Assembly (NCBI RefSeq): GCF_014195535.1
Contig: NZ_JACIBY010000007.1
Coordinates: 62,001 to 126,000, forward strand
DNA: 64,000 nucleotides
Direction of reading: 5' to 3'
Origin: Runella defluvii
GTDB lineage: Bacteria; Bacteroidota; Bacteroidia; Cytophagales; Spirosomataceae
The position numbers and the translations under genes are program-made. Every line of letters begins with the position of its first letter. Within the stretch, counting starts at the first letter, position 1. Below the pieces are notes generated by a model. The model was not told where the DNA came from, searched no databases, and was given only the letters and a program-made list of their open reading frames with translations. This document shows positions 20,687-36,507 of the stretch, in pieces.

Positions 20687-21481
20687 ATGCAACAATACCA
20701 CGACTTACTTCGCCATATTTTAGCCAACGGAACCCGTAAAACTGACCGTACGGGCACAGGAACCATTAGCGTGTTTGGCTACCAAATGCGTTTTGATTTA
20801 CAAAAAGGTTTTCCTTTGGTCACAACCAAAAAAGTCCATACCAAATCAATCATTTATGAGCTGTTGTGGTTCTTGAAAGGCGATACCAATACCAAGTACC
20901 TCAAAGACCACGGTGTCAGTATTTGGGATGAATGGGCGGATGCCGATGGCAACTTAGGGCCCGTCTATGGAAAACAGTGGCGTAGCTGGGAAGCCCCTAA
21001 CGGACAGGTGATTGACCAGTTTATGGATGTGTTGAAACAATTGAAAAATAGCCCCGATTCTCGTCGGATTATCGTTTCGGCCTGGAATCCTGCGGATTTG
21101 CCAAAAATGGCGCTTAGTCCTTGCCATGCCTTGTTTCAGTTTTATGTGGCCGATAACAAACTTTCTTGTCAGTTGTACCAGCGGAGTGCCGATGTGTTTT
21201 TGGGCGTGCCTTTCAACATCGCTAGTTATGCGTTGTTAACGATGATGATTGCCCAAGAATGCGGTTTTGAGTACGGTGATTTTATTTGGACGGGTGGAGA
21301 TACCCACATTTATCTTAACCATTTGGAACAAGTTGAGTTACAACTTAGTCGGGAGCCTAGAGAGCTGCCGACCATGAAGCTCAATCCCGACGTGAAGAGC
21401 GTATTTAACTTTACATTTGAGGATTTTACCCTCGAAAATTATAATCCTTGGCCAGGTATCAAAGCCCCCGTGGCTGTTTAG
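20687..21481 (+). CDS. thyA: thymidylate synthase
   Basis: 264 aa, the usual ThyA length. It methylates dUMP to dTMP using methylene-tetrahydrofolate. The catalytic Cys is in [13 protein letters not shown]. Other signatures are [27 protein letters not shown] and [19 protein letters not shown]. Twenty-two bases separate it from the starch regulator gene on the same strand with no terminator between, so the regulator may be partly read from the thyA transcript. Confidence 0.98.
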
Positions 21482-21503
21482 TTGGACCTAATACTAAATC
21501 GTG

Positions 21504-23399
21504 ATGAAGAATTGGTGGCGTTGTTTGATGGGAGTACTTTTTCCTTTGTTTGCAATTGCGCAAATTAGGATTGAGATTGTGCGTCATGCCCCTTTCAAAA
21601 CGGCTAACCAGCGACTTTTTTTAGCCAGCGATTTTAATAATTGGCAACCTGGAGATGCCGCATTTGAATTTAAACGGGATAAAGCGGGCAACTTCTTTTT
21701 GGATTTGCCCGATACACTGACCAATTTTAAGTTTAAGGTAACGCAAGGAAGCTGGGGGTTAGTAGAAGGGGATAGCACAGGAAAAAGCCGTCCTGACAGG
21801 GTCTATTATCGTTTTGATGAGAAAAATCCAAAATTCCTGCAAATCAGTATTGATGGCTGGGAGGCAAGGGCAATGTATCGTTTTGTGATTAACGAAATCC
21901 CCGAAAATACGCCCAAAGATGCCACAATTTACATCACAGGTAACTTTAATAACTGGCATGCGGGAGACGAAGATTTCAGGCTAAGAAAACAAGTAGATGG
22001 CACATACCGTGTCACAGTTGCGTCGGATTTACCAAGGCTGGAGTATAAGTTTACTCGTGGAGACTGGAATAGCGTTGAAGGACAGGAAAACGGAAAAACG
22101 CGAATCAATCGAATTTTATACCGAGGTCAAATTATTAATAATGAGAATATTGAAGTAAAAATAGAAAGTTGGGAAGACCTTTCGGGGACGTTTCGCTCCA
22201 TTTCTATCTATGATCTTCTGTTGTTGTTTTCGGCCTTTCAAAGCATTTTATTAATCATTGCCATCACTTCCATGCAAGACTACAACCGACACGCGAATCG
22301 TTGGTTGGTGGTTTCGCTGGCGTTTATGGCTGTGGTAGTGGCTATCAAAGTGGTCAGTGCATACCGTGAAGTAGCGCAAGAATATACTAAGATGCTACTT
22401 ATCCCCGATTTCGCGCTGTTTTTGTACGCCCCGCTTTTTTATTTTTATATTCAAAAACTGCTTTTCAAAATTCCCAAATTTCCGCGCCACTGGTGGGGGC
22501 ATTTTTTATTGCCAGCGGTTCAGTTGCTGGTCTATCTTCCTTTCTTTTTTATGGAAGAAAAGCGCCTTCAAATCAAAATTGTCAACCGTGAAATTGACAT
22601 TGTTTGGTTGTTTTGGGGAACAGGAACGCTGGCGCTATTGACCAATTTGTACTACTGGATGGTGTGCTATCGTGCCATTCGTTCGTATCGGTCATTAGCT
22701 GCCAATCAATCTTCGTCTGAGTACAACCTTCAATACCTTTCGACGGTTTTGGGCTTGCAATTGGTCTGTTTGGTGCTTTGGCTTTTTTCGGGCTTGTTGT
22801 TTGGCGTGGGGTATTTTTTCAAAATTGAAACAGTGTCGATTGTCCAAAAAAGCATTGACACCATTTGGTTGGCTTTTTCGACGATTCCCTATTTCCTGGG
22901 TTATTTTGCTATTCACCAACCCGAAATTTTTAAAATTCAGGCCAAACCTCAGCCTTTCCTGAAACCTACCGAAGAGCCAACGGTCACCATTGCATTGCAC
23001 GATACATTGGCTCCCGTGCTAGAAAAAGAGGTGGATACGCTCGAAAATTTAGGTGGGTACAAAAGCAAATTGGAAACCTACATGCTGCAATACAAGCCTT
23101 ATACCAACCCTGGGTTGACGCTCAATGAATTGGCCCAGAAATTAAAACTTGCCCCTCATTTATTGTCAAAAATTATCAATGAAGGCTACAACAAAAACTT
23201 CTTTGACTTTATAAACGAATACCGAATCGAGGAATTTAAACAACGTTTTGAAGACCCGCGCAACAAGCATTTTACCCTTTTGGCGATTGCCTTTGAAGTA
23301 GGGTTTAATTCAAAAACGGCTTTCAACCGCGCTTTCAAAAAAATGACGCAACAAACCCCGCGAGAATATTTCTTTGAGGCGAGGATTGAGGATGAATAA
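21504..23399 (+). CDS. membrane-bound AraC-type regulator with two CBM48-like glucan-binding domains
   Basis: 631 aa from the ATG at 21504 (a GTG lies one codon before). Order: signal peptide (residues 1-20, ending FAIAQ); two tandem extracytoplasmic E-set domains, about 21-115 and 125-228, each with an FNNW motif (SDFNNWQPGD, GNFNNWHAGDEDF) and a W..VEG....K.R.nR..YR tail like the starch-binding CBM48/AMPK modules; seven predicted membrane helices between about 236 and 472; a linker; and a C-terminal AraC helix-turn-helix domain (TLNELAQKLKLAPHLLSKII, FTLLAIAFEVGFNSKTAFNRAF, QTPREYF). It lies 255 bases before susC in the same direction. The inference is a one-component sensor that binds glucan outside the inner membrane and activates the locus, in the role of SusR but with different architecture. 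Confidence 0.85.
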   Translation: MKNWWRCLMGVLFPLFAIAQIRIEIVRHAPFKTANQRLFLASDFNNWQPGDAAFEFKRDKAGNFFLDLPDTLTNFKFKVTQGSWGLVEGDSTGKSRPDRVYYRFDEKNPKFLQISIDGWEARAMYRFVINEIPENTPKDATIYITGNFNNWHAGDEDFRLRKQVDGTYRVTVASDLPRLEYKFTRGDWNSVEGQENGKTRINRILYRGQIINNENIEVKIESWEDLSGTFRSISIYDLLLLFSAFQSILLIIAITSMQDYNRHANRWLVVSLAFMAVVVAIKVVSAYREVAQEYTKMLLIPDFALFLYAPLFYFYIQKLLFKIPKFPRHWWGHFLLPAVQLLVYLPFFFMEEKRLQIKIVNREIDIVWLFWGTGTLALLTNLYYWMVCYRAIRSYRSLAANQSSSEYNLQYLSTVLGLQLVCLVLWLFSGLLFGVGYFFKIETVSIVQKSIDTIWLAFSTIPYFLGYFAIHQPEIFKIQAKPQPFLKPTEEPTVTIALHDTLAPVLEKEVDTLENLGGYKSKLETYMLQYKPYTNPGLTLNELAQKLKLAPHLLSKIINEGYNKNFFDFINEYRIEEFKQRFEDPRNKHFTLLAIAFEVGFNSKTAFNRAFKKMTQQTPREYFFEARIEDE

Positions 23400-23438: not shown

Positions 23439-23478
23439 AGGACGTGCCACCTTCTAAAAGTGGCACGTCCTTTTTTTT
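23439..23478 (+). terminator. terminator between the regulator and susC
   Basis: GGACGTGCCAC/GTGGCACGTCC stem, 9-base loop, then eight T. It separates regulator transcription from the sus operon. Confidence 0.9.
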
Positions 23479-23567
23479 GTAATATTCTGATAAATAGTTG
23501 TTTATAAAAAATAGTAGCTCTTTTTGTCATTATTGCAAAGTGGGACGACAAGCGGGGTTAAGTATGG

Positions 23568-23575
23568 TACTTTTG
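23568..23575 (+). promoter_or_regulatory. -7 element of the susC promoter
   Basis: TACTTTTG, a TAnnTTTG match. No TTTG is seen at 19-21 bases, consistent with a promoter that needs an activator such as the upstream AraC-type protein. Transcription would start near 23582, which argues against using the ATG at 23586. Confidence 0.45.
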
Positions 23576-23654
23576 CAAGAAGAAATTGATGAAACGCCAT
23601 GTTTACTCCATTTCAATCTTTCCAATTATCCAATTTAACTTACATCAAACCCCT

Positions 23655-26618
23655 ATGATGATTTCGATGTACAAGGTTTTTGGCCGAACAAATGTTCGTC
23701 TAAATTTGATGATGTTGCTGTGGGCTTGTGTGTCCATAACAACCATGGCGCAGGACATTACTGTGTCAGGAAAAGTCCAAGAGTCCAACGGTTCGGTGCT
23801 CCCAGGCGTGAGCGTGTTGGTGAAAGGAACCACGCGCGGAACGCAGACTGACGCCGATGGTAACTTTAAAATTGCGGCGCCAAGCAGCGCAACGTTGGTG
23901 TTTAGTTTTGTGGGCATGACTTCGCAGGAGGTGGCCATCAACAACCGTACGCAGCTTTCGGTGACGTTGCAAAATGACAACAAGCAACTGGCAGAAGTGG
24001 TCGTAATTGGGTACGGTACGCAACGTAAAAAAGACCTGACGGGCTCTATCGCTTCGATCACTACCGCCGACTTTAACAAAGGTAACATTGCCACGCCCGA
24101 CCAACTCGTAGCGGGTAAAGTTGCGGGGGTGCAGATTACGCCCAACGGCGGTGCGCCAGGCGCGGGAAGTACGATTCGTATTCGCGGCGGGGCTTCGTTG
24201 AATGCCAGCAATGATCCACTCATTGTTATCGACGGTGTGCCTTTGGACAATACCACCATCAATGGTGCAGCAAACCCTTTGAGTTTGATTAACCCCAACG
24301 ACATTGAATCATTTAATATCCTTAAAGATGCTTCTGCAACGGCTATTTATGGTTCACGAGCTTCTAACGGGGTCATTATGATTACGACCAAAAAAGGTAA
24401 AAAAGGCGATGTGATGCGCGTAAATTTGAGCACGCAAGCGTCAGTTGGTCTTAAAACAGGCTTGGTTGATGTACTTTCGGGCGATGATTTTCGCGCGTTG
24501 GTCAATAAATACGGTACGGCAACGCAAAAAACGTTGTTAGGTAAGACAAACACGGATTGGCAAAATGAAGTCTATCGTGCAGCAGTAAGTACAGACAATA
24601 ATTTGAGTATCACAGGTGCATTCAAAAATACGCCTTACCGCGTGTCGGTGGGTTACACCAACCAAAACGGTATTTTGAAAACCTCCAACATGGGTCGTAC
24701 TTCGGCCTCGGTAGGATTGACGCCAATGCTGTTGGATAACCACCTAAAAATTGACATCAACGTCAAAGCGGCTTCGATTAAAAATAAATTTGCCAACCAA
24801 GGGGCTATTGGGGCAGCGGCTTCTTTTGACCCAACCCAACCCGTGTATTCGGGGACGGAAGCGTACGGCGGTTATTACGAGTGGGTAAACGCCGATGGAA
24901 AACCTAACACGATTGCGACGCGCAACCCACTTGGCTTGTTGAATTTGACGGACGACCGTGCCACGGTAAACCGCAGCATCGGAAATGCGCAGTTTGATTA
25001 TAAATTTCACTTCCTTCCAGAACTACATGCTAACCTGAACGTTGGTTATGATGTGTCAAGAAGCGATGGTAAAAAGGTTATTCCTGCTTTGGCAGCTTCT
25101 AACTTCAGTAATGGCGGCGAAAAGACGGTTTATACCCAAGACCGCACCAACAAATTGTTGGATTTCTACCTCAACTACGTCAAAGACTTGACAAAAGACA
25201 CACGCCTTGACTTGATGGCGGGCTATTCGTACCAAGATTTTATGAATTCGACCACGACCATAACTAAGGACGAAGCCGAAACCAAAACCCTCAACGACAG
25301 TCCCTACAAGACGCAAAATACCTTGGTGTCGTTTTTTGGTCGGGCCAATTTGAACGTGCAAGACCGTTATTTGTTGACACTGACGCTTCGTCGCGATGGT
25401 TCTTCTCGCTTTGCCAAAGAAAACCGTTGGGGAACGTTTCCGTCGGCGGCTTTTGCTTGGAAAATCAGCGAAATGGATTTCTTGAAAAGCTCTAGTGTGA
25501 TTTCAGACTTGAAATTACGTGTCGGATACGGGGTAACAGGTCAGCAAGATGTGGGACAAAACTTCGCTTATTTGGCACGTTATACCCCAAGTACGGCCAC
25601 TGCCCAGCAGCTTTTGGGAACAACCTACTACAACACACTCCGCGCCGAAGGCTACAATGCGAACATCAAATGGGAGCAAACGGTTACGCAAAACGTTGGG
25701 TTGGACTTTGCTTTCAAAAAAGCACGTTTGTCGGGTAGCATCGACTACTACATGAAAAATACGTCTGATTTGTTGAACGTTGTTCCAGTAGCAGCGGGCA
25801 CCAACCTTACCAATGAAATCTTGTCGAACGTTGGCTCTATCGAAAATAAAGGTTTAGAGTTGTTGTTGAACCACAACACCATCAGCCGCGAAGATTTTAC
25901 GCTTGATTTAGGCTTCAACGCGACTTACAACGAAAACAAGATCACCAAGTTAACCTCGGCCAATGATCCCAATTATAAAGGGGTATTGGTGGGTGGAATT
26001 TCAGGTGGGGTAGGAAGCACCATTCAAATCCACTCGGTTGGCTATCCTGCTTCTTCGTTTTTCGTAGCCCAACAAGTCTATGATGCCTCAGGCAAACCCG
26101 TAGAAGGCGTGTATGTGGACAAAAATGGCGATGGTAAAATCACCGTGGACGATTATTATCACTACAAATCACCCGCTCCACGCGTATTTATTGGTTTCAA
26201 TGCCCAAGCGACGTACAAAAAATTGAGTGCAGGCTTTGTCTTACGTGGCAACTTTGGCAACTACGTTTATAACAACATTCTTTCAACCAATGGCGTATTG
26301 CAAGCCTTCCAAGGTGCTAATAACTCATTGGGTAACGTTGTGCCAAACGTCCTTACTACCTTGTTTGCGACGCCTCAGTATTTCTCCGATTACTACATGC
26401 AAAATGGTTCATTTTTACGAATGGACAACGCATTTGCAGGCTATGATTTAGGGAAAATATTTGGCGGAAAATCGACGGCCCGCCTTTCAGCAACGGTTCA
26501 GAATGTATTTGTAATTACAAAATACACGGGGCTTAACCCTGAAGTGAGCGGAGGAATTGATAATAACATTTATCCCATTCCACGTACGTTTACCCTTGGC
26601 TTAAACATCGGATTCTAA
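23655..26618 (+). CDS. susC: SusC/RagA family TonB-dependent outer membrane transporter
   Basis: 987 aa from the ATG at 23655 (others at 23658, 23667 and 23586 are in frame; the first lies too close to the -7 box). The signal peptide ends TTMAQ. Next are a carboxypeptidase-regulatory-like domain (DITVSGKVQESNGSVLPGVSVLVKG), then the plug with the SusC signature (DIESFNILKDASATAIYGSRASNGVIMITTKKG), then the 22-strand barrel ending FTLGLNIGF. It imports oligosaccharides with SusD as lid. The neighbouring GH13 enzymes and SusE-like protein point to maltodextrins. Confidence 0.96.
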   Translation: MMISMYKVFGRTNVRLNLMMLLWACVSITTMAQDITVSGKVQESNGSVLPGVSVLVKGTTRGTQTDADGNFKIAAPSSATLVFSFVGMTSQEVAINNRTQLSVTLQNDNKQLAEVVVIGYGTQRKKDLTGSIASITTADFNKGNIATPDQLVAGKVAGVQITPNGGAPGAGSTIRIRGGASLNASNDPLIVIDGVPLDNTTINGAANPLSLINPNDIESFNILKDASATAIYGSRASNGVIMITTKKGKKGDVMRVNLSTQASVGLKTGLVDVLSGDDFRALVNKYGTATQKTLLGKTNTDWQNEVYRAAVSTDNNLSITGAFKNTPYRVSVGYTNQNGILKTSNMGRTSASVGLTPMLLDNHLKIDINVKAASIKNKFANQGAIGAAASFDPTQPVYSGTEAYGGYYEWVNADGKPNTIATRNPLGLLNLTDDRATVNRSIGNAQFDYKFHFLPELHANLNVGYDVSRSDGKKVIPALAASNFSNGGEKTVYTQDRTNKLLDFYLNYVKDLTKDTRLDLMAGYSYQDFMNSTTTITKDEAETKTLNDSPYKTQNTLVSFFGRANLNVQDRYLLTLTLRRDGSSRFAKENRWGTFPSAAFAWKISEMDFLKSSSVISDLKLRVGYGVTGQQDVGQNFAYLARYTPSTATAQQLLGTTYYNTLRAEGYNANIKWEQTVTQNVGLDFAFKKARLSGSIDYYMKNTSDLLNVVPVAAGTNLTNEILSNVGSIENKGLELLLNHNTISREDFTLDLGFNATYNENKITKLTSANDPNYKGVLVGGISGGVGSTIQIHSVGYPASSFFVAQQVYDASGKPVEGVYVDKNGDGKITVDDYYHYKSPAPRVFIGFNAQATYKKLSAGFVLRGNFGNYVYNNILSTNGVLQAFQGANNSLGNVVPNVLTTLFATPQYFSDYYMQNGSFLRMDNAFAGYDLGKIFGGKSTARLSATVQNVFVITKYTGLNPEVSGGIDNNIYPIPRTFTLGLNIGF

Positions 26619-26635: not shown

Positions 26636-28231
26636 ATGAAACATTTCATTTCTAAAAATACAGTACTTGGAGGGATTGCACTCGCGTTGACAATGTCCTC
26701 ATGTATCAAAGACCTAGACCGTAAGCCGTTCAATGAAGTCACTTCAGCAACGGTCTATAACGACCCCGCAGCCTACAAGCAAGTAGCGGCCAAATTGTAC
26801 GCAGGTATGATGCTAACGGGGCAGCAAGGCCCTGCGGGCGACGACCGTACGAAGGACATCAAAGGAATGGACGAAGGGTTTTCGAGCTATTTGCGTAATT
26901 ATTGGTACTTGCAAGTCTTGCCAACCGATGAGGCCGTGATTGCGTGGAGTGACGCAGGTTTGCCCGAAATCAATTACATGAAGTGGTCGTCGAATAACGC
27001 ATTCATTCGTGGTTTTTACAACCGTGTCTTTTACCAAATCGCTTCTTGCAATGAATTTATTCGTGAGACGAGCGATGCCAAATTAAACGAAAGAGGTGTT
27101 TCGGGGACTATTTTGACCGAAACAAAAGCCCTTCGGGCGGAGGCTCGTTTTTTGCGGGCATTGAGCTACTGGCACGCGTTGGATTTGTTCGGAGGAAATG
27201 TACCTTTTGTAACAGAAAATGACGCTGTGGGTTCTGCTCCGCCAAAACAAACAAATGCAAAAAGCTTGTTTGAATACATCGAATCAGAATTGAAAGCAAT
27301 TGATGGCGAGCTAGTTGACGCTCGTAAAAACGAATATGCTCGCGCCGATAAAGCGGCTGCGTGGATGTTGTTGGCAAAATTGTACCTCAACGCCGAAGCC
27401 CAAGGCCAAGGAAACCGCTACGCAGATGCGGCTACCTACGCCAAAAAAGTGATTGACGCGGGGTATTCTTTGCAAACCAAATACGAAGATTTGTTCAAAG
27501 CCGACAATAACACCTCAACGGAGGTGATTTGGGCACTCGCCGCCGACGGAACACGTAGCCAAACTTGGGGTGGAATGACGTTCCTATGCCATGCACCCGT
27601 GGGTGGTTCGATGCCAGCTTCTGCCTATGGTATCGACGGCGGTTGGGGCGGTGTCCGTGTGACGCCATCGTTTGTGAAGCTTTTTGCTGACCCAACTGGT
27701 AAGACCGACAAACGTGCGATGTTCTATACGGATGGCCAAAAACTTGAAATCAACGAATTGAGCACATTTACGGACGGATATGCGATGCCTAAGTTCAAAA
27801 ACGTAACATCGGCGGGTAAAGTAGGTAGCAACCTAACGCACCCTGATACCGATTTTCCGATGTTCCGTTTAGCGGATGCCTACTTGATTTATGCCGAAGC
27901 TGCCTCTCGTGGCGCTGGTGACAAAACATTGGCGTTGGACTATGTCAATAAAATCCGCGCGCGTGCCTATGGAAGTGCCGCTGGAAACATCACTTCGTCT
28001 GAGTTGACGCCTGATTTTGTGTTGGCCGAACGTGCCCGCGAATTATCGTGGGAGGGAAGTCGCCGTACGGACTTGATTCGCTATGGTAAATTTACGGGTG
28101 CCTCGTATTTGTGGGCGTGGAAAGGTGGCGTTAAAGACGGGGCGGGGGTTCAAGATTACTTGAAAATTTTCCCACTTCCATCTACTGACCTAACGGCGAA
28201 TCCAAACTTGGTTCAAAACACAGGATATTAG
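26636..28231 (+). CDS. susD: SusD/RagB family starch-binding lipoprotein
   Basis: 531 aa. Lipobox TMSSC near residue 23. TPR-like helical segments of the SusD family include LRAEARFLRALSYWHALDLFGGNVPFV, and the C-terminal signature is LAERARELSWEGSRRTDLIRYGKF. It covers the SusC barrel at the cell surface and captures the glycan. Only 17 bases separate it from susC. Confidence 0.96.
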   Translation: MKHFISKNTVLGGIALALTMSSCIKDLDRKPFNEVTSATVYNDPAAYKQVAAKLYAGMMLTGQQGPAGDDRTKDIKGMDEGFSSYLRNYWYLQVLPTDEAVIAWSDAGLPEINYMKWSSNNAFIRGFYNRVFYQIASCNEFIRETSDAKLNERGVSGTILTETKALRAEARFLRALSYWHALDLFGGNVPFVTENDAVGSAPPKQTNAKSLFEYIESELKAIDGELVDARKNEYARADKAAAWMLLAKLYLNAEAQGQGNRYADAATYAKKVIDAGYSLQTKYEDLFKADNNTSTEVIWALAADGTRSQTWGGMTFLCHAPVGGSMPASAYGIDGGWGGVRVTPSFVKLFADPTGKTDKRAMFYTDGQKLEINELSTFTDGYAMPKFKNVTSAGKVGSNLTHPDTDFPMFRLADAYLIYAEAASRGAGDKTLALDYVNKIRARAYGSAAGNITSSELTPDFVLAERARELSWEGSRRTDLIRYGKFTGASYLWAWKGGVKDGAGVQDYLKIFPLPSTDLTANPNLVQNTGY

Positions 28232-28350: not shown

Positions 28351-29661
28351 ATGAAAAAGTGGTTTCATAAATACGTATTCGCGGTCGTTGCGACGACGAT
28401 GTTGGCCTCATGCGAAAAAGACGAAATAAAGGCCGTCCTCAATTCGGGGGCAGTGCCTGTGGTGACCCTTTCTTCGCAAACAGTCGTACTGACAAAAGAA
28501 AATGCGGACAAAGATGCCTTGACGGTATCGTGGGCAAAACCCGATTATGGTTTTGAGGCACCTGCCAACTACACCGTTTTGATTGATAAAAAAGGAGGTG
28601 ATTTCTCCAATGCAGCGTCGATTGTGACGGGAACAGAATTGAAAAAGACGTTTAAAGCCTCTGAATTGAACCCGATTTTGTTGAAACTCGGCTTGAAGGC
28701 TGCTACCGCTGGCGACATCGACATCAAAGTTCAATCGTTTTTGGGTGGAAGTACCACGCTGGCTTCGACGGTGATGTCCGTAAAAGCAACGCCATATTTG
28801 GACAAACTTGACCTTTCTACCAATTGGGGAATCGTGGGAAGTGCGACTGTAAACGGCTGGAATGGCCCAGATATGCCGTTCTACAAATCGGATAAAGCCA
28901 ATGTGTATGTAGCGTACGTAGCGTTGGTGGACGGAGAAATCAAGTTCCGCCAAGACAACAAATGGGATGTAAACATGGGCGATAATGGCGCTGACGGTAC
29001 GCTCGAAGCAGGTGGTGCCAACATCGTAGTCAAACAAGGAAATTATAAGATTACGTTTGATGCAGGTGCTATGAAATATACCATTGATAAATACGCGTGG
29101 GGAATCGTGGGAAGTGCTGCTCCAAGTGGCTGGAATGCACCTGATGCACCGTTTTTCTATGACCCTGCCACCGATCAATGGCGTGTGATTGTGACGTTGA
29201 AAGACGGTGAAATCAAAATTCGTCAGAACGAAGATTGGGCGGTCAACTACGGTGACAAAGGGGCCGACGGTACGCTTGACGCAGGTGGGGATAACATTGT
29301 GGTAAAAGCAGGTTTGTATTTGATTACGGTTGATTTTAAGTCGCTTAAATACACCATTGTTCCTTTCAAAGTATGGGGGATTGTGGGAAGTGGCGCACCA
29401 AATGGCTGGAATGGCCCTGATACGAAATTTACGCCTGATTTTGGTAATGAGGGAATTTGGACATTGAACGGCATTAAATTGGTGGACGGAGAAATCAAAT
29501 TCCGCCAAAACGATGATTGGGCTGTTAACTACGGTGACGACAAGGCCGATGGTGTAATGGAGGCAGGTGGTGCCAACATCGTCGTAAAAGCAGGAACGTA
29601 CGACATTGTCCTCGACTTTACAGTGGCGGCCAAACCAACGTATAAATTGACGAAGAAATAA
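28351..29661 (+). CDS. susE: SusE/SusF-like surface starch-binding lipoprotein with three repeats
   Basis: 436 aa. Lipobox TMLASC at residue 21, then an N-terminal SusE-type immunoglobulin-like domain (about 30-150). Three tandem modules begin WGIVGS at residues 159, 250 and 342, each about 91 aa with the pattern WGIVGS..p.GWNgPD..f, dGEIKfRqn..W.vNyGD..aDG.leaGG.NIvVk.G.Y.i. These are the starch-binding modules of SusE/SusF. The modules are also similar in DNA, suggesting recent internal duplication. The protein would hold starch at the surface. Confidence 0.9.
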   Translation: MKKWFHKYVFAVVATTMLASCEKDEIKAVLNSGAVPVVTLSSQTVVLTKENADKDALTVSWAKPDYGFEAPANYTVLIDKKGGDFSNAASIVTGTELKKTFKASELNPILLKLGLKAATAGDIDIKVQSFLGGSTTLASTVMSVKATPYLDKLDLSTNWGIVGSATVNGWNGPDMPFYKSDKANVYVAYVALVDGEIKFRQDNKWDVNMGDNGADGTLEAGGANIVVKQGNYKITFDAGAMKYTIDKYAWGIVGSAAPSGWNAPDAPFFYDPATDQWRVIVTLKDGEIKIRQNEDWAVNYGDKGADGTLDAGGDNIVVKAGLYLITVDFKSLKYTIVPFKVWGIVGSGAPNGWNGPDTKFTPDFGNEGIWTLNGIKLVDGEIKFRQNDDWAVNYGDDKADGVMEAGGANIVVKAGTYDIVLDFTVAAKPTYKLTKK

Positions 29662-29764: not shown

Positions 29765-31600
29765 ATGAAAAAATATAGCTTGTTTTTGTTCTTTATCGCA
29801 GCAGTACTGCCGCTTTATGCCCAGCGCGTCGAACCTGCCTTTTGGTGGGTGGGAATGAAAGAACCGCGTTTGCAGTTGCTCATCCACCAAAATAATATTG
29901 GTACTACCGAGCCTCAAGTGACCTACGCGGGGGTAAAATTGACCAAAGTGACGCGCGTAAAAAGCCCCAATTATCTTTTTTTGGATTTAACCATTGCAGC
30001 TACTGCCAAAGCAGGAAGTTTCCCAATCACGTTTAAAAAAGACGGAAAAACGGTGGCAAGCTATTCGTACGAATTAAAAAATCGGGAACCTAATTCAGCT
30101 AATCGCCAAGGGTTTACCTCGGCCGACGCCATGTATTTGGTAACTCCAGACCGTTTTGCCAATGCGAATCCCGCCAACGATAACGTGGAAGGAATGGTCG
30201 ATAAAGTTGACAGGGCGGGCAAAGACAAACGGCACGGAGGTGACATTCAGGGAATTATCGAACAGTTGGATTACATTCAAAAGCTGGGTTTTTCGGCGCT
30301 TTGGATTTGCCCACTTCAAGAAAATAATCAAAATATGGGCTCGTACCACGGCTATGCCATGACCGATTTGTATAAAGTGGACGCACGTTTTGGGAGCAAT
30401 GAAGAGTACCGAAAGTTGTCGAAAGAAGCCCAAAAAAGAGGCATAAAATTGGTGATTGATTTGGTGCCTAATCACTGTGGTTCAGAACATTGGTGGATGA
30501 AAGATTTACCCACCGACGACTGGGTGAATTTTCAAGGAAACCCTAAAATAACCCACCATGCTCGCGAAAGTATTCAAGACCCTCATGCAAGCGAATACGA
30601 CAAAGAACTACACGCCAGCGGTTGGTTTGTACCAAGTATGCCCGATTTGAATCAGCGTAATCCATTGATGGCCAATTATTTGATTCAAAATACGATTTGG
30701 TGGATTGAATACGCTGATTTGCACGGAATTCGGGTCGATACGTATCCTTATTCTGATAAAGACTTTATGAGTCGCTGGTCGCAGCGCATCATGCGTGAGT
30801 ACCCCCGTTTTAGCATGGTCGGGGAAGAGTGGTCGGTCAATCCTTCGATTGTTGCATTTTGGCAAAAAGGGAATAAAAATACCAATGGATACGTGTCGGA
30901 AATGTCAAGTATGTTTGATTTTCCGCTGCAAAATGCCTTGACAGAAGCCTTGAATGAAGATGACCGAATTTACAACCGTGGTTTGGTGAAAATATACCAA
31001 ACGCTGTCGCAGGATTTTTTATATGCCTCGCCCAATGATTTGGTTATTATGCCCGACAACCACGACATGAGCCGTTTTTACACCCAAATCCACGAAAATT
31101 TCGACCTTTGGAAAATGGGAATTTCGTTTTTGCTGACGACGAGGGGCACACCACAAATTTATTACGGAACAGAAGTGCTGATGACCAATCCGAAAAGTGA
31201 TTCGCACGACGAAATTCGGGGAGAAATGCCAGGGGGATGGGCTGACCATACCGTGAGTGCGTTTACGGAAAAAGGCTTGACGCCTCAGCAGTTGGAGGCA
31301 AAACAGTTTATGACAAAAATGCTGCAATGGCGTAAAACCAACGCGGTCGTTCAAACGGGGAAATTGAAACACTTTACCGCCCGCGATGGCCTGTATGTGT
31401 ATTTTAGGTACAACGATGCCCAAAAAGTGATGGTGGTGATGAATAAAAATAAAGAACCCTTGAAGTTGGATTTGGGCAAATATTCAGAACTACTAAAAGG
31501 GGCTTCGACGGCAAAAAATGTGTTGACGGGAGAAACGAATTCGTTGGCCAATGGCTTGACTGTCAATGCGTCGTCGGCGTTGGTATTGGAGATAAAATAA
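29765..31600 (+). CDS. susA: GH13 neopullulanase/cyclomaltodextrinase (SusA-like)
   Basis: 611 aa; the ATG at 29765 gives a clean signal peptide (MKKYSLFLFFIAAVLPLYAQ), whereas the longer frame would start before the terminator hairpin. Residues 21-105 match the cyclomaltodextrinase N-terminal domain (VEPAFWWVGMKEPRLQLLIH). The GH13 barrel follows with VIDLVPNHCG, the nucleophile Asp325 in GIRVDTYPY, the acid Glu354 in MVGEEW, and Asp434 in MPDNHDMSR. As for B. thetaiotaomicron SusA, it probably cuts imported maltooligosaccharides, pullulan or cyclodextrins in the periplasm. It has no lipobox and no T9SS domain. Confidence 0.93.
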   Translation: MKKYSLFLFFIAAVLPLYAQRVEPAFWWVGMKEPRLQLLIHQNNIGTTEPQVTYAGVKLTKVTRVKSPNYLFLDLTIAATAKAGSFPITFKKDGKTVASYSYELKNREPNSANRQGFTSADAMYLVTPDRFANANPANDNVEGMVDKVDRAGKDKRHGGDIQGIIEQLDYIQKLGFSALWICPLQENNQNMGSYHGYAMTDLYKVDARFGSNEEYRKLSKEAQKRGIKLVIDLVPNHCGSEHWWMKDLPTDDWVNFQGNPKITHHARESIQDPHASEYDKELHASGWFVPSMPDLNQRNPLMANYLIQNTIWWIEYADLHGIRVDTYPYSDKDFMSRWSQRIMREYPRFSMVGEEWSVNPSIVAFWQKGNKNTNGYVSEMSSMFDFPLQNALTEALNEDDRIYNRGLVKIYQTLSQDFLYASPNDLVIMPDNHDMSRFYTQIHENFDLWKMGISFLLTTRGTPQIYYGTEVLMTNPKSDSHDEIRGEMPGGWADHTVSAFTEKGLTPQQLEAKQFMTKMLQWRKTNAVVQTGKLKHFTARDGLYVYFRYNDAQKVMVVMNKNKEPLKLDLGKYSELLKGASTAKNVLTGETNSLANGLTVNASSALVLEIK

Positions 31601-31609
31601 ATCAATGGT

Positions 31610-34393
31610 ATGAAAAAACTCATTTCTATTTTTCTAGGATTGTTGCTGAACCAGTGGAGCTGGGGACAAGCGTTGGTCTTGAAACCAGAATTTCCCACCG
31701 CTGATGGTGAAGTAACGTTGACGTTTGATTTGACGCAAGCGAAAGATAGCCGTAAAGCTGCCTTGATGAATCAAGCCTCAGGGTTGTATATTTGGGCCTG
31801 GGGGGGCTCGGATGTATCGAACCGAACGTCCGAATTTGGCCCCGCTGGCCAATCCAGTTTTTCACAAGCCTACGCGCCTGGACTGTTGACGTGGGTAAGT
31901 GACAACGTTTGGACGATTAAAATTACGCCTTCAAAATACCTGAGCGTGCCTGCGGGAAAAACGCTTCGGTGGATGGGCGTATTGGTAAAAAACGCCAACG
32001 GCTCAGGCCAAACCGAAGACTTTTTGTTTAATTTTTACGCTTCTAATCAGTTGTTTGTACGATTTTCGACTCCGACCGAAAAAACACTTTTTGTCGATGC
32101 CAATGCTTCGTTGCGCGTTCGGGCAAGCGCTTCCACGAGTTCTCAGCTCACGCTGACGCTTGATGGAGTGACTGTTGCGTCAGTTAAAGATACGGCCATT
32201 TCTACCTCAATTTCGGTGGGGAATACGCCCAATCAGCGGCGAACGGTGAAAGTTACGGCAAGTGCTAATAACCAAGAAGTCACGGATGAATTTTCGTTTA
32301 CGGTGAGCCCAACCCCTAAAGTAGCGGCTCTTCCTGCTGGACTGAAAAATGGCATTAATTACACTTCGGCTACGTCGGCAACATTGGTGCTATTTGCTCC
32401 CAACAAGAAGTTTATTTACGTCACGGGTGATTTTAATAATTGGGAAACGCGCACCGATTATTTGATGAATAAAACGCCCGATGGGCAAACGTATTGGTTA
32501 GAAATCAAAGACTTAACACCTCAAAAAGAATACGCGTTTCAGTACTTGGTCGATGGCGTAACGCCCATCAATGACCCGTACAGTGAGAAAATCTTGGATG
32601 CGGCCAACGATAAATTTATTCCCGCCACGAACTATCCTAACCTGATGGCTTTCCCCGCGAAGGCGTTGGGGAATAGCGCTTCGGTACTTCAAACGGCCCA
32701 AGTACCTTACGTTTGGAAAACCACCAATTTCAAACGTCCCGCCAACGAAGATTTGGTGATTTATGAGCTACTCGTACGCGATTTTGTCGATAGTCGTTGG
32801 TATAAAACCGTCGGTGATTCGCTTAATTACCTCAAAAAACTGGGCGTCAACGCCATTGAATTGATGCCCGTGATGGAGTTTTCGGGCAACGATTCGTGGG
32901 GGTACAATCCCATCTTCCACGCGGCACCTGATAAGGCATACGGCACGCCCGATGATTTGAAGGCATTCATTGACAAGTGCCACGCCAACGGCATTGCGGT
33001 GATTTTGGACATGGTGCTCAATCAAGCCGATTATGAGTTTCCATACGTAAAAATGTACTGGGATGGCAACCGCCCGTCGGCCGATAATCCCATGTTCAAC
33101 ATTCAAGCTACGCACCCGTTTAGCGTGTTTTTTGATTTTAACCACGAATCCGCCGCCACCAAGTCGTACGTGGAGCGGGTCAATGAATTTTGGTTGAAAG
33201 AATACCGTTTTGATGGCTATCGCTTTGACTTGTCCAAAGGATTTACGCAGGTGAATTCGGGAAATGACGTGGCTTTTTGGGGTCGTTACGATGCCAGTAG
33301 AATCGCGATTTGGAAGCGAATTTATGACCAAATCCGCAAAACTGACCCGACGGCCTACGTAATTTTGGAACACTTTGCCGATGATAACGAAGAGGCTGAG
33401 TTGACCAATTACGGAATGATGGTGTGGGACAACCAAAACGGCGCCGTACGAGAGGCCGTAAAAACGGGGAAAGGAAATTTTAACCGATTGTCGTGGAAAA
33501 ACCACGCGGGTTTCCAAAAAGCAGCGGCTATTGGTTACATGGAAAGCCACGATGAAGAGCGAATTATTTACGACGCCATCACCAACGGCAGTGCTGAGGT
33601 GAAAAGTGTGGCCACGGCCATCGAACGCGTAAAGGCCGCTGCCGCGTTGTTTTTCCTAACGCCAGGGCCAAAACTGATTTGGCAATTTGGAGAATTGGGC
33701 TACGACGTGTCGATTGATCAAAACGGTCGGACGGGGGCTAAACCCATTCGGTGGGAGTATTTGCGGGATAATAAACGCCTTCAACTCTACAATGTGTTTT
33801 CGGAACTGATTCGTTTTAAAACAACTCAAGCAGTCACGAAAACGACGGATTTTAGCCTCCAAACGACCGAAACGGTTAAACAATTGATACTGAATACGCC
33901 GACGATGAAAGTGCAGGTTATGGCCAACTTTGGCCTTACCGACCAAGTTGTTGCTTTGCCCGTAGGCCGTTGGTTCGATTTCTTCTCGGGCGATGAAATC
34001 ACGGTGACGTCTTCCTTGCCGCAATACGCGTTTCGGGCGGGGCAGTTTCACGTACTGACTTCCGAAAAGGTAGCCGTTACCTCACAAAATACCGTTTCGT
34101 GGAAAATTCAAACGATTACCTCGGTAGAACCTTCGTCCAAAGAGACAGCCCTGCAATTGTCGCCTAATCCTACCCAAGATTGGCTAAACGTGGCGTGGGA
34201 GAGTGCCTACCGCGGGGAGGTAAGAATAGAAATTATGGATATGACAGGACGGGCGCTGCGCTATTTTTTACCCCAAAAAACGACCAACCAAATGCAGCAG
34301 CGCATTTCGGTGAAAGAAGTGCCAGCGGGTACTTATTTCTTGAAAATAGGGGAAGGAACAACAACTCAAACCCAACGCTGGATAAAACAATAG
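31610..34393 (+). CDS. secreted CBM48-GH13 amylase with T9SS type A sorting domain
   Basis: 927 aa. Signal peptide 1-19. Residues 20-240 hold two beta domains of the kind found before SusG-type amylases. A CBM48 follows (about 255-330, VTGDFNNWETRTDY). The GH13 barrel covers about 380-770 with catalytic Asp540 (FDGYRFDLSKGF), Glu587 (VILEHFADD) and Asp648 (YMESHDEER). The last ~80 residues are a type A C-terminal sorting domain (LSPNPTQDWLNV ... VPAGTYFLKIGEG) for T9SS export. It would start extracellular starch breakdown. It follows the SusA-like gene by nine bases. The end of the gene lies in a 115-bp tandem duplication. Confidence 0.93.
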   Translation: MKKLISIFLGLLLNQWSWGQALVLKPEFPTADGEVTLTFDLTQAKDSRKAALMNQASGLYIWAWGGSDVSNRTSEFGPAGQSSFSQAYAPGLLTWVSDNVWTIKITPSKYLSVPAGKTLRWMGVLVKNANGSGQTEDFLFNFYASNQLFVRFSTPTEKTLFVDANASLRVRASASTSSQLTLTLDGVTVASVKDTAISTSISVGNTPNQRRTVKVTASANNQEVTDEFSFTVSPTPKVAALPAGLKNGINYTSATSATLVLFAPNKKFIYVTGDFNNWETRTDYLMNKTPDGQTYWLEIKDLTPQKEYAFQYLVDGVTPINDPYSEKILDAANDKFIPATNYPNLMAFPAKALGNSASVLQTAQVPYVWKTTNFKRPANEDLVIYELLVRDFVDSRWYKTVGDSLNYLKKLGVNAIELMPVMEFSGNDSWGYNPIFHAAPDKAYGTPDDLKAFIDKCHANGIAVILDMVLNQADYEFPYVKMYWDGNRPSADNPMFNIQATHPFSVFFDFNHESAATKSYVERVNEFWLKEYRFDGYRFDLSKGFTQVNSGNDVAFWGRYDASRIAIWKRIYDQIRKTDPTAYVILEHFADDNEEAELTNYGMMVWDNQNGAVREAVKTGKGNFNRLSWKNHAGFQKAAAIGYMESHDEERIIYDAITNGSAEVKSVATAIERVKAAAALFFLTPGPKLIWQFGELGYDVSIDQNGRTGAKPIRWEYLRDNKRLQLYNVFSELIRFKTTQAVTKTTDFSLQTTETVKQLILNTPTMKVQVMANFGLTDQVVALPVGRWFDFFSGDEITVTSSLPQYAFRAGQFHVLTSEKVAVTSQNTVSWKIQTITSVEPSSKETALQLSPNPTQDWLNVAWESAYRGEVRIEIMDMTGRALRYFLPQKTTNQMQQRISVKEVPAGTYFLKIGEGTTTQTQRWIKQ

Positions 34394-34536
34394 TTTAAAG
34401 AGCTTCGATGTACAGCGCATTTCGGTGAAAGAAGTGCCAGCGGGTACTTATTTCTTGAAAATAGGGGAAGGAACAGCCTCCCAAACCCAACGCTGGATAA
34501 AACAATAGTTTAAAGAGCTTCGATGTACAGCGCATT
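34298..34536. repeat. 115-bp tandem duplication at two convergent gene ends
   Basis: Copy 1 (34298-34412) and copy 2 (34413-34527) have exactly 115-bp spacing. The word CAGCGCATT starts copy 1 and recurs just after copy 2 at 34528, so 9 bases of homology probably seeded the duplication. Copy 1 carries the functional end and stop of the amylase gene. Copy 2 repeats it as a non-functional remnant and also supplies the end of the convergent 665-aa gene. The copies differ only at four clustered bases. Confidence 0.9.
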
Positions 34537-36507
34537 GCCGTCGGTGGTGCGCTGTATTTTTTTGCCGTTGATAGTCACCGTAAACTGCACTGGTTCAAAG
34601 GCTTCTGCAAACGTGTCTTGGAATATTAGCAACCGTTTACCCGTTTTGGGATTACGCCACACCTGCAACCACGGTTGATTAAACTTAAATGCCCGAGCAA
34701 ATTCCCCCGTATCGTTTTGCCAAGTCGCTTTTTGGGGTTTTTGAGTAGAACGTTGGTAGTCAAAAGCATAACTTTCGCGTACTTGACTGCCATCCAAAAT
34801 GAGTTGGTGCTTTGCAAATAGCTCGTGCGCTTGCACCATCGCCGCTACGCCGAGGGCATCTTTTCCCATATAATCTTCGGCCACCGTGGGGCAAGCGGGC
34901 TGGTCGGGGCCTTGGTAGTCATACACAAAATAGCCGCCTGTATTTTGCGAAACACAAGATAAATTACCGTTGATTTTGGCGTAACGAAGGGCTTGGTAGG
35001 GGTCGTACGATTGGCCAAAAATCCAGTAGTTGGTATAAAAAACGCGGGGATTGCACAAGTGAACAAAAACCGCATCGCGCACCAAATTCATGGGATACAT
35101 CACCCGATTGTCCAGTTGCCGAATGTAACCTTTTGAGCCGTGCCCCACCTTAAAACGTCGGGTGTGGCTTCGGCACGCATCGGAAGGTTTGTCTTCGTAC
35201 GGCCAAAAAAAGTTGATAAATTTCACCGATGGAGAAGCCGTGAGCGACTTGATATTCAGCATATCGAGGGTACGCAAGTACCAGTTGATGGGTGCTTTCC
35301 AAACGTGGGCGGGTTGGTCGGTGGCATCACTGGTATTGACAGTGCTGCTGGTATATCCAAAGCCCGTCATAAGCACCACGGGCGAAGGTAGCTGTACTTG
35401 CTGAATGTCTTTGGGGTGTTCGTGAAGTGCTAAGTAATCATCAATTTTTTTCTTATCCGCACTCCAATTGTCGTTGGCGTAGCCGTCAAGTTTGAAATTT
35501 TTACCTTGAAACGTGAAAGTCAACGGGTCGCCAATCCACGAAAAAAAGAGCTTTCCGTGTTTTTTGTAGATTCTATCTGACAAATCGTACATGGTTTTCC
35601 GAAAAGCAGGGTCGCTCATATCCCATTGCCAACCGTCAGCGGCGGGGTTGGCAGGCTCAAAATCAACAGCAAAGGTGGACGAAGGCAATCGTTTGGCCAA
35701 CCAATCGGCAGCTTGGTCAAGCTGACGGGCATCAAATCGGGTAATGCCTCGTCGGTTTTGGGCACGGCTGTGGTTCATCAGTTCGAGTACTTCGCCCGCG
35801 TACAAAAGTTTAAAACGATCATCGCTGATGTTCCAGCCCACTTTTCGCAAATTGGCGACGGGTTCATCGAGCGGTTTGGATTCCGAACCGTATTTTTTTT
35901 GAGAAGGAAGGGAAAAAGCGGGAGTTTGCTTGAAAATTTTACTATCTCCTACGGAGCCGTTGGTAGGCCAAAGTGGTTGGGTATAAGCAAGTTCGCTGGT
36001 TGATTTTTGTAAGGAATCGCGTACCCAAAATATCACCTCCGATACGGACGAATATTTGGTCTGTCCCGCCACTGTATTCGTTTCTGACGTGAGCCACGCT
36101 TCTGAATTGATGTTGTTGATTTCGGCGGTGTATTTTACCAAATGAATCCAACGAGAAGGCTGAATCGGCAAGTCGCTGAGGCGTCGGGCGTCGGTGGCAT
36201 TGACGCTGCCGTTGAGGGCATAATAGGTAATCCTTCCTTTTTCGGGCTTGGCATCATCGACGAGGTAGAGCCGATGGTCATTTCGCCGAACTACCCGCAG
36301 TTGAAGCTGTTGGTCTTCGTAGTTTTTTGGGTCGGGTTCGTGCTCAAAATAAACAATGGTAGCTTGCGAACGCGGCAATTCGGGCAGGAGCGGAGCAGGG
36401 GACGTAATGACAGGTTCGGGAGAGCTAAACAGGTTATTTCGTTGGTAATAAACCACTAAGCTTACAATTGCTGCGAGCGTAATCCCTATTTTAACCATAC
36501 GTTTCAC
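34510..36507 (-). CDS. unrecognised 665-aa envelope protein
   Basis: An N-terminal hydrophobic stretch (VKIGITLAAIVSLVVYY) anchors or exports the protein, followed by a Pro-rich linker. The rest has no motif I can name with confidence; segments such as STFAVDFEPANPAADGWQWD, KLFFSWIGDP and VVLMTGFGYTSS would suit a TIM-barrel glycoside-hydrolase-like fold, but no catalytic pair is assigned. It begins with a GTG that overlaps the stop of the MerR gene (GTGA), so it is translationally coupled; an ATG at 36498 is the alternative. Its 3' end lies in the 115-bp duplication. Confidence 0.7.
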   Translation of the reverse strand: MKRMVKIGITLAAIVSLVVYYQRNNLFSSPEPVITSPAPLLPELPRSQATIVYFEHEPDPKNYEDQQLQLRVVRRNDHRLYLVDDAKPEKGRITYYALNGSVNATDARRLSDLPIQPSRWIHLVKYTAEINNINSEAWLTSETNTVAGQTKYSSVSEVIFWVRDSLQKSTSELAYTQPLWPTNGSVGDSKIFKQTPAFSLPSQKKYGSESKPLDEPVANLRKVGWNISDDRFKLLYAGEVLELMNHSRAQNRRGITRFDARQLDQAADWLAKRLPSSTFAVDFEPANPAADGWQWDMSDPAFRKTMYDLSDRIYKKHGKLFFSWIGDPLTFTFQGKNFKLDGYANDNWSADKKKIDDYLALHEHPKDIQQVQLPSPVVLMTGFGYTSSTVNTSDATDQPAHVWKAPINWYLRTLDMLNIKSLTASPSVKFINFFWPYEDKPSDACRSHTRRFKVGHGSKGYIRQLDNRVMYPMNLVRDAVFVHLCNPRVFYTNYWIFGQSYDPYQALRYAKINGNLSCVSQNTGGYFVYDYQGPDQPACPTVAEDYMGKDALGVAAMVQAHELFAKHQLILDGSQVRESYAFDYQRSTQKPQKATWQNDTGEFARAFKFNQPWLQVWRNPKTGKRLLIFQDTFAEAFEPVQFTVTINGKKIQRTTDGNALYIEAL

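Follow-up and report, generated by a model that had tools for sequence, protein, structure and literature searches.

A putative seven-helix transmembrane AraC-type regulator ahead of the starch utilization operon in Runella and its relatives

In Runella and its relatives, one protein appears to switch on the genes for starch use, with a sensor resembling starch-binding modules on the outer side of the inner membrane, seven helices and a DNA-binding end on the inside. The protein is encoded in the window, a stretch of 64,000 nucleotides from Runella defluvii (assembly GCF_014195535.1, contig NZ_JACIBY010000007.1, positions 62,001 to 126,000 of the forward strand), whose coordinates are used below. 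We read it as a probable transmembrane one-component activator of the adjacent sus operon that would sense periplasmic alpha-glucan oligosaccharides and act through two DNA sites, Box A and Box B, and we give this reading a probability of about 0.68. The combination of parts and the candidate operator appear to be new as far as the open-access papers searched show; membrane one-component regulators, including SusR, are known.

The regulator gene occupies 21504..23399 on the forward strand and encodes 631 amino acids from the ATG at 21504; the frame is also open from a GTG at 21501. The hydrophobic N-terminus (residues 1-19, 21504..21560, ending in AIA before Q20) is read as a signal peptide from its hydropathy and the conserved AQ in which it closes. 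Two CBM48-like modules follow, module 1 at about residues 22-119 (21567..21860) and module 2 at about residues 123-226 (21870..22181), and then seven hydrophobic segments at about residues 229-478 (22188..22937), placed by family-averaged hydropathy and by counts of lysine and arginine (K+R) in the loops. The AraC-type DNA-binding domain (23130..23369) gives the sole Pfam match above cutoff: HTH_18 covers residues 543-622 with E=7.3e-14 and 52.3 bits (cutoff 33.6), and HTH_AraC also scores above its threshold (29.5 bits vs. 26.6). Both families were matched in 34/34 homologues at E<=0.01, and by this domain criterion the regulator belongs to the AraC/XylS family. A thyA gene on the same strand (window 20687-21504) has its stop 22 bp before the regulator start, and thyA also precedes the regulator in six other Runella loci (L083, L084, L088, L109, L110 and L128). 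With thyA adjoining it upstream on the same strand, the regulator may share a transcript with a housekeeping gene.

Hydropathy averaged over 38 homologues gave seven peaks, near residues 247, 277, 307, 341, 375, 424 and 460. Mean K+R counts were 1.7, 2.4 and 3.5 in the loops assigned to the inside and 1.7, 2.4 and 0.7 in those assigned to the outside, a moderate positive-inside bias consistent with an external sensor. The acidic linker after helix 7 (K+R 2.4, D+E 5.3) adds nothing to this bias. Given seven segments and external modules, the HTH would be cytoplasmic. The linker between the helices and the HTH is the least conserved part of the protein, at 19% mean pairwise identity.

Modules 1 and 2 are 30% identical over 80 residues (E=6e-18, a single-comparison value). 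This mutual similarity, together with conservation across homologues, rules out chance occurrences of an FNNW motif. The window protein itself matches the CBM48 clan below Pfam cutoffs (AMPK1_CBM E=0.079, CBM53 E=0.22), and the CBM_48 cutoff of 22.4 bits is surpassed in the relatives L149 (30.5), L151 (24.5) and L153 (33.1). Matches to the clan at E<=0.01 among the 34 homologues were to X25 (7), AMPK1_CBM (7), CBM53 (3) and CBM_48 (1). A profile of 22 modules searched against PDB sequences returned weak values, the GH13 amylase 8dl1 at E=0.0035 and the glycogen-binding domain of AMPK beta at E about 0.14, with branching enzymes and pullulanase also among the matches; searches with single modules gave weak matches only. 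In module 2, W151, K182, W188 and N202 are invariant in all 38 rows of alignment A1, and in a wider set of 35 sequences they are kept in 35, 34, 35 and 32. We take these W/K/W/N positions to correspond, at sequence level, to W100, K126, W133 and N150 of AMPK beta. Module 1 retains W47 and K78 in 33/33 sequences, W84 in 32/33 and N98 in 29/33, the last being D98 in the window protein. From the invariant residues of module 2 and the alpha-glucan genes nearby, we infer that the ligand would be an alpha-glucan.

The layout proposed in the earlier note was borne out, with a hydrophobic N-terminus, two CBM48-like modules resembling each other, seven hydropathy peaks and an above-cutoff AraC domain. 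The pair of modules that it described proved not to be obligatory: mean pairwise identity is 41% for module 1 vs. 52% for module 2, and 8 of 48 regulators placed in a tree lack module 1, the one-module proteins keeping the membrane-proximal module. The tree (40 two-module and 8 one-module regulators), built by a quick method and with some long branches, needs at least four changes between the two states, of which the starred branches force three.

The same module of about 100 residues (FNNW...KFTRGxW..VE...NR) also occurs in PF00756 esterases, some of which have T9SS tails; there it is fused to an enzyme, with no TM segments or HTH. Proteins of about 330-570 residues in Bacteroidota-type records (L151-L161, L164, L165, L167, L168, L173, L175, L176 and L181) consist almost wholly of CBM48-like modules, in arrays of three or five.

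Downstream of the regulator, on the same strand, lie a susC-like gene (23586..26618, TIGR04056 at 774 bits; its start is more likely the ATG at 23655, the conserved start in the Runella alignment), a susD-like gene (26636..28231) and a susE-like gene (28351..29661). Two GH13 genes follow, a neopullulanase-like one with Cyc-maltodext_N/C domains (29768..31600) and another with its own CBM48-like region and a T9SS tail (31610..34393). These genes agree with the starch-type sus locus that had been claimed ahead of which the regulator sits. In the SusE-like protein the pattern VWGIVGS.APNGWN recurs, seemingly as three tandem copies. Beyond the operon, on the opposite strand (34510-36507), a protein of 665 residues has no Pfam match at E<=1e-5.

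The link between regulator and operon was examined across 200 genomes of the family, counting homologues of regulator length as regulators and proteins close to the window SusD (E<=1e-70) as starch-type SusD. Such a co-occurrence map had been proposed in the earlier note, and the two genes proved to go together: 62 genomes held both, 6 the regulator only, 7 SusD only and 125 neither (Fisher p=2e-36, a value that ignores kinship). In one genome tallied as SusD only (G010) the regulator is cut by a contig end, which makes the counts 63, 6, 6 and 125. SusD lay within 20 kb of the regulator at 54 of 69 places, on the same strand at 50 and divergently at 4. The pattern repeats among close relatives within Runella, where 8 of 13 genomes had both genes (G010 included), one SusD only and four neither.

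Homologous frames of at least 568 amino acids were found at these 69 places in 68/200 family genomes, and 40 such loci that were retrieved align with the window protein through the HTH, which is more than chance would give. In a survey of named genomes restricted to the best 80 of 424 confirmed relatives, the architecture was present in Runella, Flectobacillus, Rudanella, Fibrisoma, Arsenicibacter, Dyadobacter, Emticicia, Lacihabitans and Jiulongibacter. The same 80 loci included Chryseolinea, Flammeovirga, Cellulophaga, Croceivirga, Maribacter, Zobellia, Marinoscillum, Phaeodactylibacter and Saprospiraceae records. The architecture recurs in the Spirosomataceae and extends to marine Flavobacteriaceae, Flammeovirga and Saprospiraceae. 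Sensor and helices were both matched in only 4 of 395 genomes sampled across the phylum (G000, G345, G020 and G271), so the regulator is concentrated in a few lineages.

In Cellulophaga, Maribacter and Zobellia the regulator stands directly before a GH13 gene in a locus that holds susCDE. Surroundings were listed for 14 loci, all or nearly all with no adjacent starch-type susC, and chosen neighbours were scanned in five. An alpha-amylase adjoins the regulator away from susC in L092, L124, L137 and L146, loci chosen for their amylase-looking frames. The neighbours at L127 (3824-8182) are a GHMP kinase, GalT and a sortilin-like protein and not starch genes; in this Arcicella-type clade (related loci L130 and L073) they hint at another ligand. 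Regulators with no obvious sus neighbours were also seen in Flammeovirga and Phaeodactylibacter (L136, L138, L139, L149 and L150), the surroundings of the first four being among those listed.

Alignment of the interval between regulator and susC revealed two conserved boxes. In the window, Box A (23444..23466, forward strand), a near-palindrome proposed as the distal operator, is contained in a perfect inverted repeat followed by a T run (23440..23470), which resembles a terminator. Box B, AAAGTGGGACGAC (23537..23549), is proposed as the promoter-proximal operator, and TACTTTTG (23568..23575) fits TAnnTTTG, which we take to be the consensus of the Bacteroidota -7 element. The Box A consensus is GTrCCAyTTTaTAAArtGG, close to a palindrome, and Box B reads AAAGTGGnnCGAC; reverse-complementing its core gives the left half of Box A. 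TAnnTTTG lies at a distance of 30 bp from Box B in 16/17 pairs and of 31 bp in the remaining one. The spacing of Box A and Box B falls into two classes among 18 loci, 8 with 77-84 bp and 10 with 91-94 bp, which are suggestive of helical turns. Variants occur in Fibrella (AAACTGGAACGAC) and in Flectobacillus (31-bp spacing).

When the 350 bp preceding the susC frame were searched, Box B turned up at 26 of 49 regulator-linked loci, or 21 of 40 after duplicate removal. Boxes lying at a greater distance (Flectobacillus, Emticicia) and the Fibrella variant escape this count. Box B was found at none of 41 other sus-type loci, which come mostly from more distant families and of which L143 and L144 carry the regulator in a position not directly before susC, and in 1% of base-shuffled sequences. 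A looser composite was present up to 7 kb after the regulator at 24 of 50 loci and absent from 38 non-regulator sus loci (1.48 Mb, both strands counted). At two divergent loci (L072 and L132) both boxes are present and point to susC, and L288 has a Box A-like sequence and the site before susC, with the regulator on another contig. By position, Box B goes with susC and not with the regulator gene. Because the boxes are kept with susC in the divergent loci, they are not merely the end of the regulator gene; the reading of Box A as a terminator alone is weakened by the same loci and is retained as a rival.

A strict composite (Box B, 20 bases, TAnnTTTG) was searched in the 200 genomes, with the reversed pattern as the control. 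It occurred at 53 sites, vs. 24 for the control. Thirty-five of the 53, all from different genomes, had a regulator within 8 kb, and three had SusD within that distance but no regulator nearby (G041 and G008). The 15 sites elsewhere (10 in regulator genomes, 5 in others) are at about chance level given the control count; among the ten in regulator genomes, four were inspected, and L279, L284 and L288 precede a susC or GH13 frame and L289 does not. The window's own genome has the strict site once, before susC. Of the 63 genomes with both genes, 35 have the site next to the regulator or upstream of susC; the other 28 lack it, some having variants and others none that we could see. The site was present in 2 of 6 regulator-only genomes (G028 and G057) and in 1 of 6 SusD-only genomes (G008), and was not found in the other five SusD-positive genomes lacking the regulator. 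G008 (L305, position 2368) holds both boxes and susCDE, but its assembly (97% complete, 570 contigs) contains no regulator, which is either lost or in an assembly gap.

SusR is the nearest functional parallel. In PMC3878776 it is a membrane-bound activator of sus that senses in the periplasm and binds DNA through a cytoplasmic domain, and its predicted operators are two sites 67 or 77 bp apart, a wide spacing comparable to the 77 to 94 bp between the present boxes in 18 loci. The two proteins nevertheless have no sequence similarity (BLASTP E=2.2 vs. the SusR of L247). The SusR profile NF058541 and its C-terminal DUF6377 (PF19904) were absent from the window protein's matches at E<=0.1 and E<=1, whereas true SusRs elsewhere score 585-610 bits on NF058541 (431 for one cut by the end of its stretch), and membership in SusR is rejected. 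SusR-type proteins at four other sus loci (L226, L229, L245 and L247) carry DUF6377 and no AraC domain, which upholds the earlier statement that the layout differs from that of SusR. The idea of a one-component transmembrane glucan sensor stood in part: a sensor, TM segments and a DNA-binding domain do lie in one polypeptide with no kinase or receiver, as the sequence has it, but the mechanism is not new, as SusR is already such a regulator (PMC3878776, PMC10269533).

Four of the 200 family genomes encode SusR, all four alongside the present regulator; SusR lies 4.8 kb from a second SusD in G107 and G114, 26 kb away in one genome and on another contig in one. Across the phylum, 39 loci around SusD were annotated by length and BLAST, and nine chosen frames were scanned with Pfam/NCBIfam. 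Besides the four SusRs, these loci held an HTCS (L244), a LacI (L240) and an NrtR-like protein (L224), which suggests that at least four unrelated controls have been set over the sus operon: SusR, HTCS, LacI and the present regulator. In G047 and G095 (L309 and L310), two of the five SusD-positive genomes with neither regulator nor strict site, FecR-like and small frames before susC resemble, by eye, an ECF sigma/anti-sigma pair. Like the present regulator, HTCS proteins combine a periplasmic sensor and an AraC domain in one polypeptide at PULs. HisKA, HATPase_c, Response_reg and Reg_prop were not among the families matched by the 34 homologues, the first three being found in the L244 protein, and HTCS membership is rejected. 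PMC3878776 gives an average spacing of 21 bp for predicted HTCS boxes, unlike the 77 to 94 bp found here.

Two further groups share the seven-helix layout. 7TMR-DISM receptors have an extracellular sensor, seven helices and a cytoplasmic output, an arrangement similar to that of the regulator. PF07695 was matched neither in the regulator nor among the families of the 34 homologues, and it was matched ten times elsewhere in the window genome; hhalign against nine 7TMR-DISM members of that genome gave a probability of 0.16%, and membership is rejected. The TM parts aligned by hhalign with 12 sensorless 7TM-AraC proteins at a probability of 96.8% (E=2e-10); one row of the inputs to these hhalign comparisons (L031) contains stops. 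Two such proteins of the window genome, L002 and L003, have the same TM-AraC chassis (29% and 32% identity) but are only 373 and 377 amino acids long and have no CBM-like modules.

Transmembrane transcription regulators are a recognised class (PMC10269533), about 56% being single-pass and 27% having more than two TM regions. CadC, ToxR, ChiS and others are likewise one-component proteins acting from the membrane (PMC10269533); the words AraC and HTH_18 do not occur in its main text. RsgI-type anti-sigma factors are described as also using a CBM as the extracellular sensor of a transmembrane regulator, but they act through a sigma factor where the present protein has an AraC domain. No paper on this domain combination and operator was found in the open-access literature, which leaves most subscription journals outside, and no AraC regulator of the present layout appears in the part of PMC10766802 consulted.

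SusCD imports maltooligosaccharides into the periplasm, as is established for sus. There, these would be bound by module 2, next to the membrane, through its W-K-W-N set, with module 1 as an accessory that can be lost and that may help module 2 where present. Binding would shift or pair the seven-helix bundle, and the AraC domains, which the poorly conserved linker would keep at the inner face, could then bind Box A and Box B. Because Box B sits where a -33 element would be, the bound regulator may recruit RNA polymerase to the susC promoter. Every step of this scheme is inferred, from parts that are evident in the sequence.

Other explanations were weighed against this one. The protein might regulate sus with modules that bind no starch, serving as a stalk or contacting another periplasmic component, for example a sugar-loaded binding protein, so that the signal is indirect, as has been proposed for ChiS and chitin-binding protein. 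The module's presence in PF00756 esterases and in secreted three- and five-module arrays of no shown starch link fits this explanation, as do the non-starch locus L127 and the activation of ChiS through a periplasmic binding protein reported in PMC11856585. The 38/38 invariance of W151, K182, W188 and N202 nonetheless exceeds the needs of a stalk, and the CBM48 clan consists of alpha-glucan binders, and we regard an indirect signal as unlikely, if the most serious of the competing accounts.

It is still less probable that the boxes are bound by another factor, or that Box A is only the regulator's terminator, and that the protein controls something else. Such an account would suit the perfect hairpin and T run around Box A in the window and the boxes of G008, where the regulator is missing, but it sits poorly with the Box A-like sequence that stays with susC at L072, L132 and on the regulator-less contig L288, and with the lack of the site in five SusD-positive genomes without the regulator. 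We hold it equally improbable that the DNA-binding part is freed by intramembrane proteolysis or that the protein represses. The poor conservation of the linker speaks for this account; against it, Box B stands immediately before the -7 element, where an activator substituting for a -33 element would be expected.

If the activator reading is right, the protein is a starch switch made by one gene, so that sensing, relay across the membrane and DNA binding are open to study in the same polypeptide; a predicted operator and natural variants lacking module 1 come with it. Starch sensing in Bacteroidota outside Bacteroides is hardly worked out. Since the unrelated SusR also has widely spaced boxes, how a membrane-held factor finds and bends its promoter becomes a testable question. 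A broader idea, which we consider possible but rather doubtful, is that sus in the Spirosomataceae is usually regulated by a family of 7TM-AraC receptors, whose seven-helix bundle couples an exchangeable periplasmic sensor directly to a DNA-binding domain kept at the membrane, and which arose independently of SusR while sharing with it two far-apart boxes. If so, dimeric activators anchored in the membrane that loop a promoter to it would follow a general design rule, a pair of boxes separated by many helical turns. As a separate observation, frames at L308 (12076-13724) that code for repeated FNSYLVRLK, partly masked, resemble a CRISPR-type repeat array.
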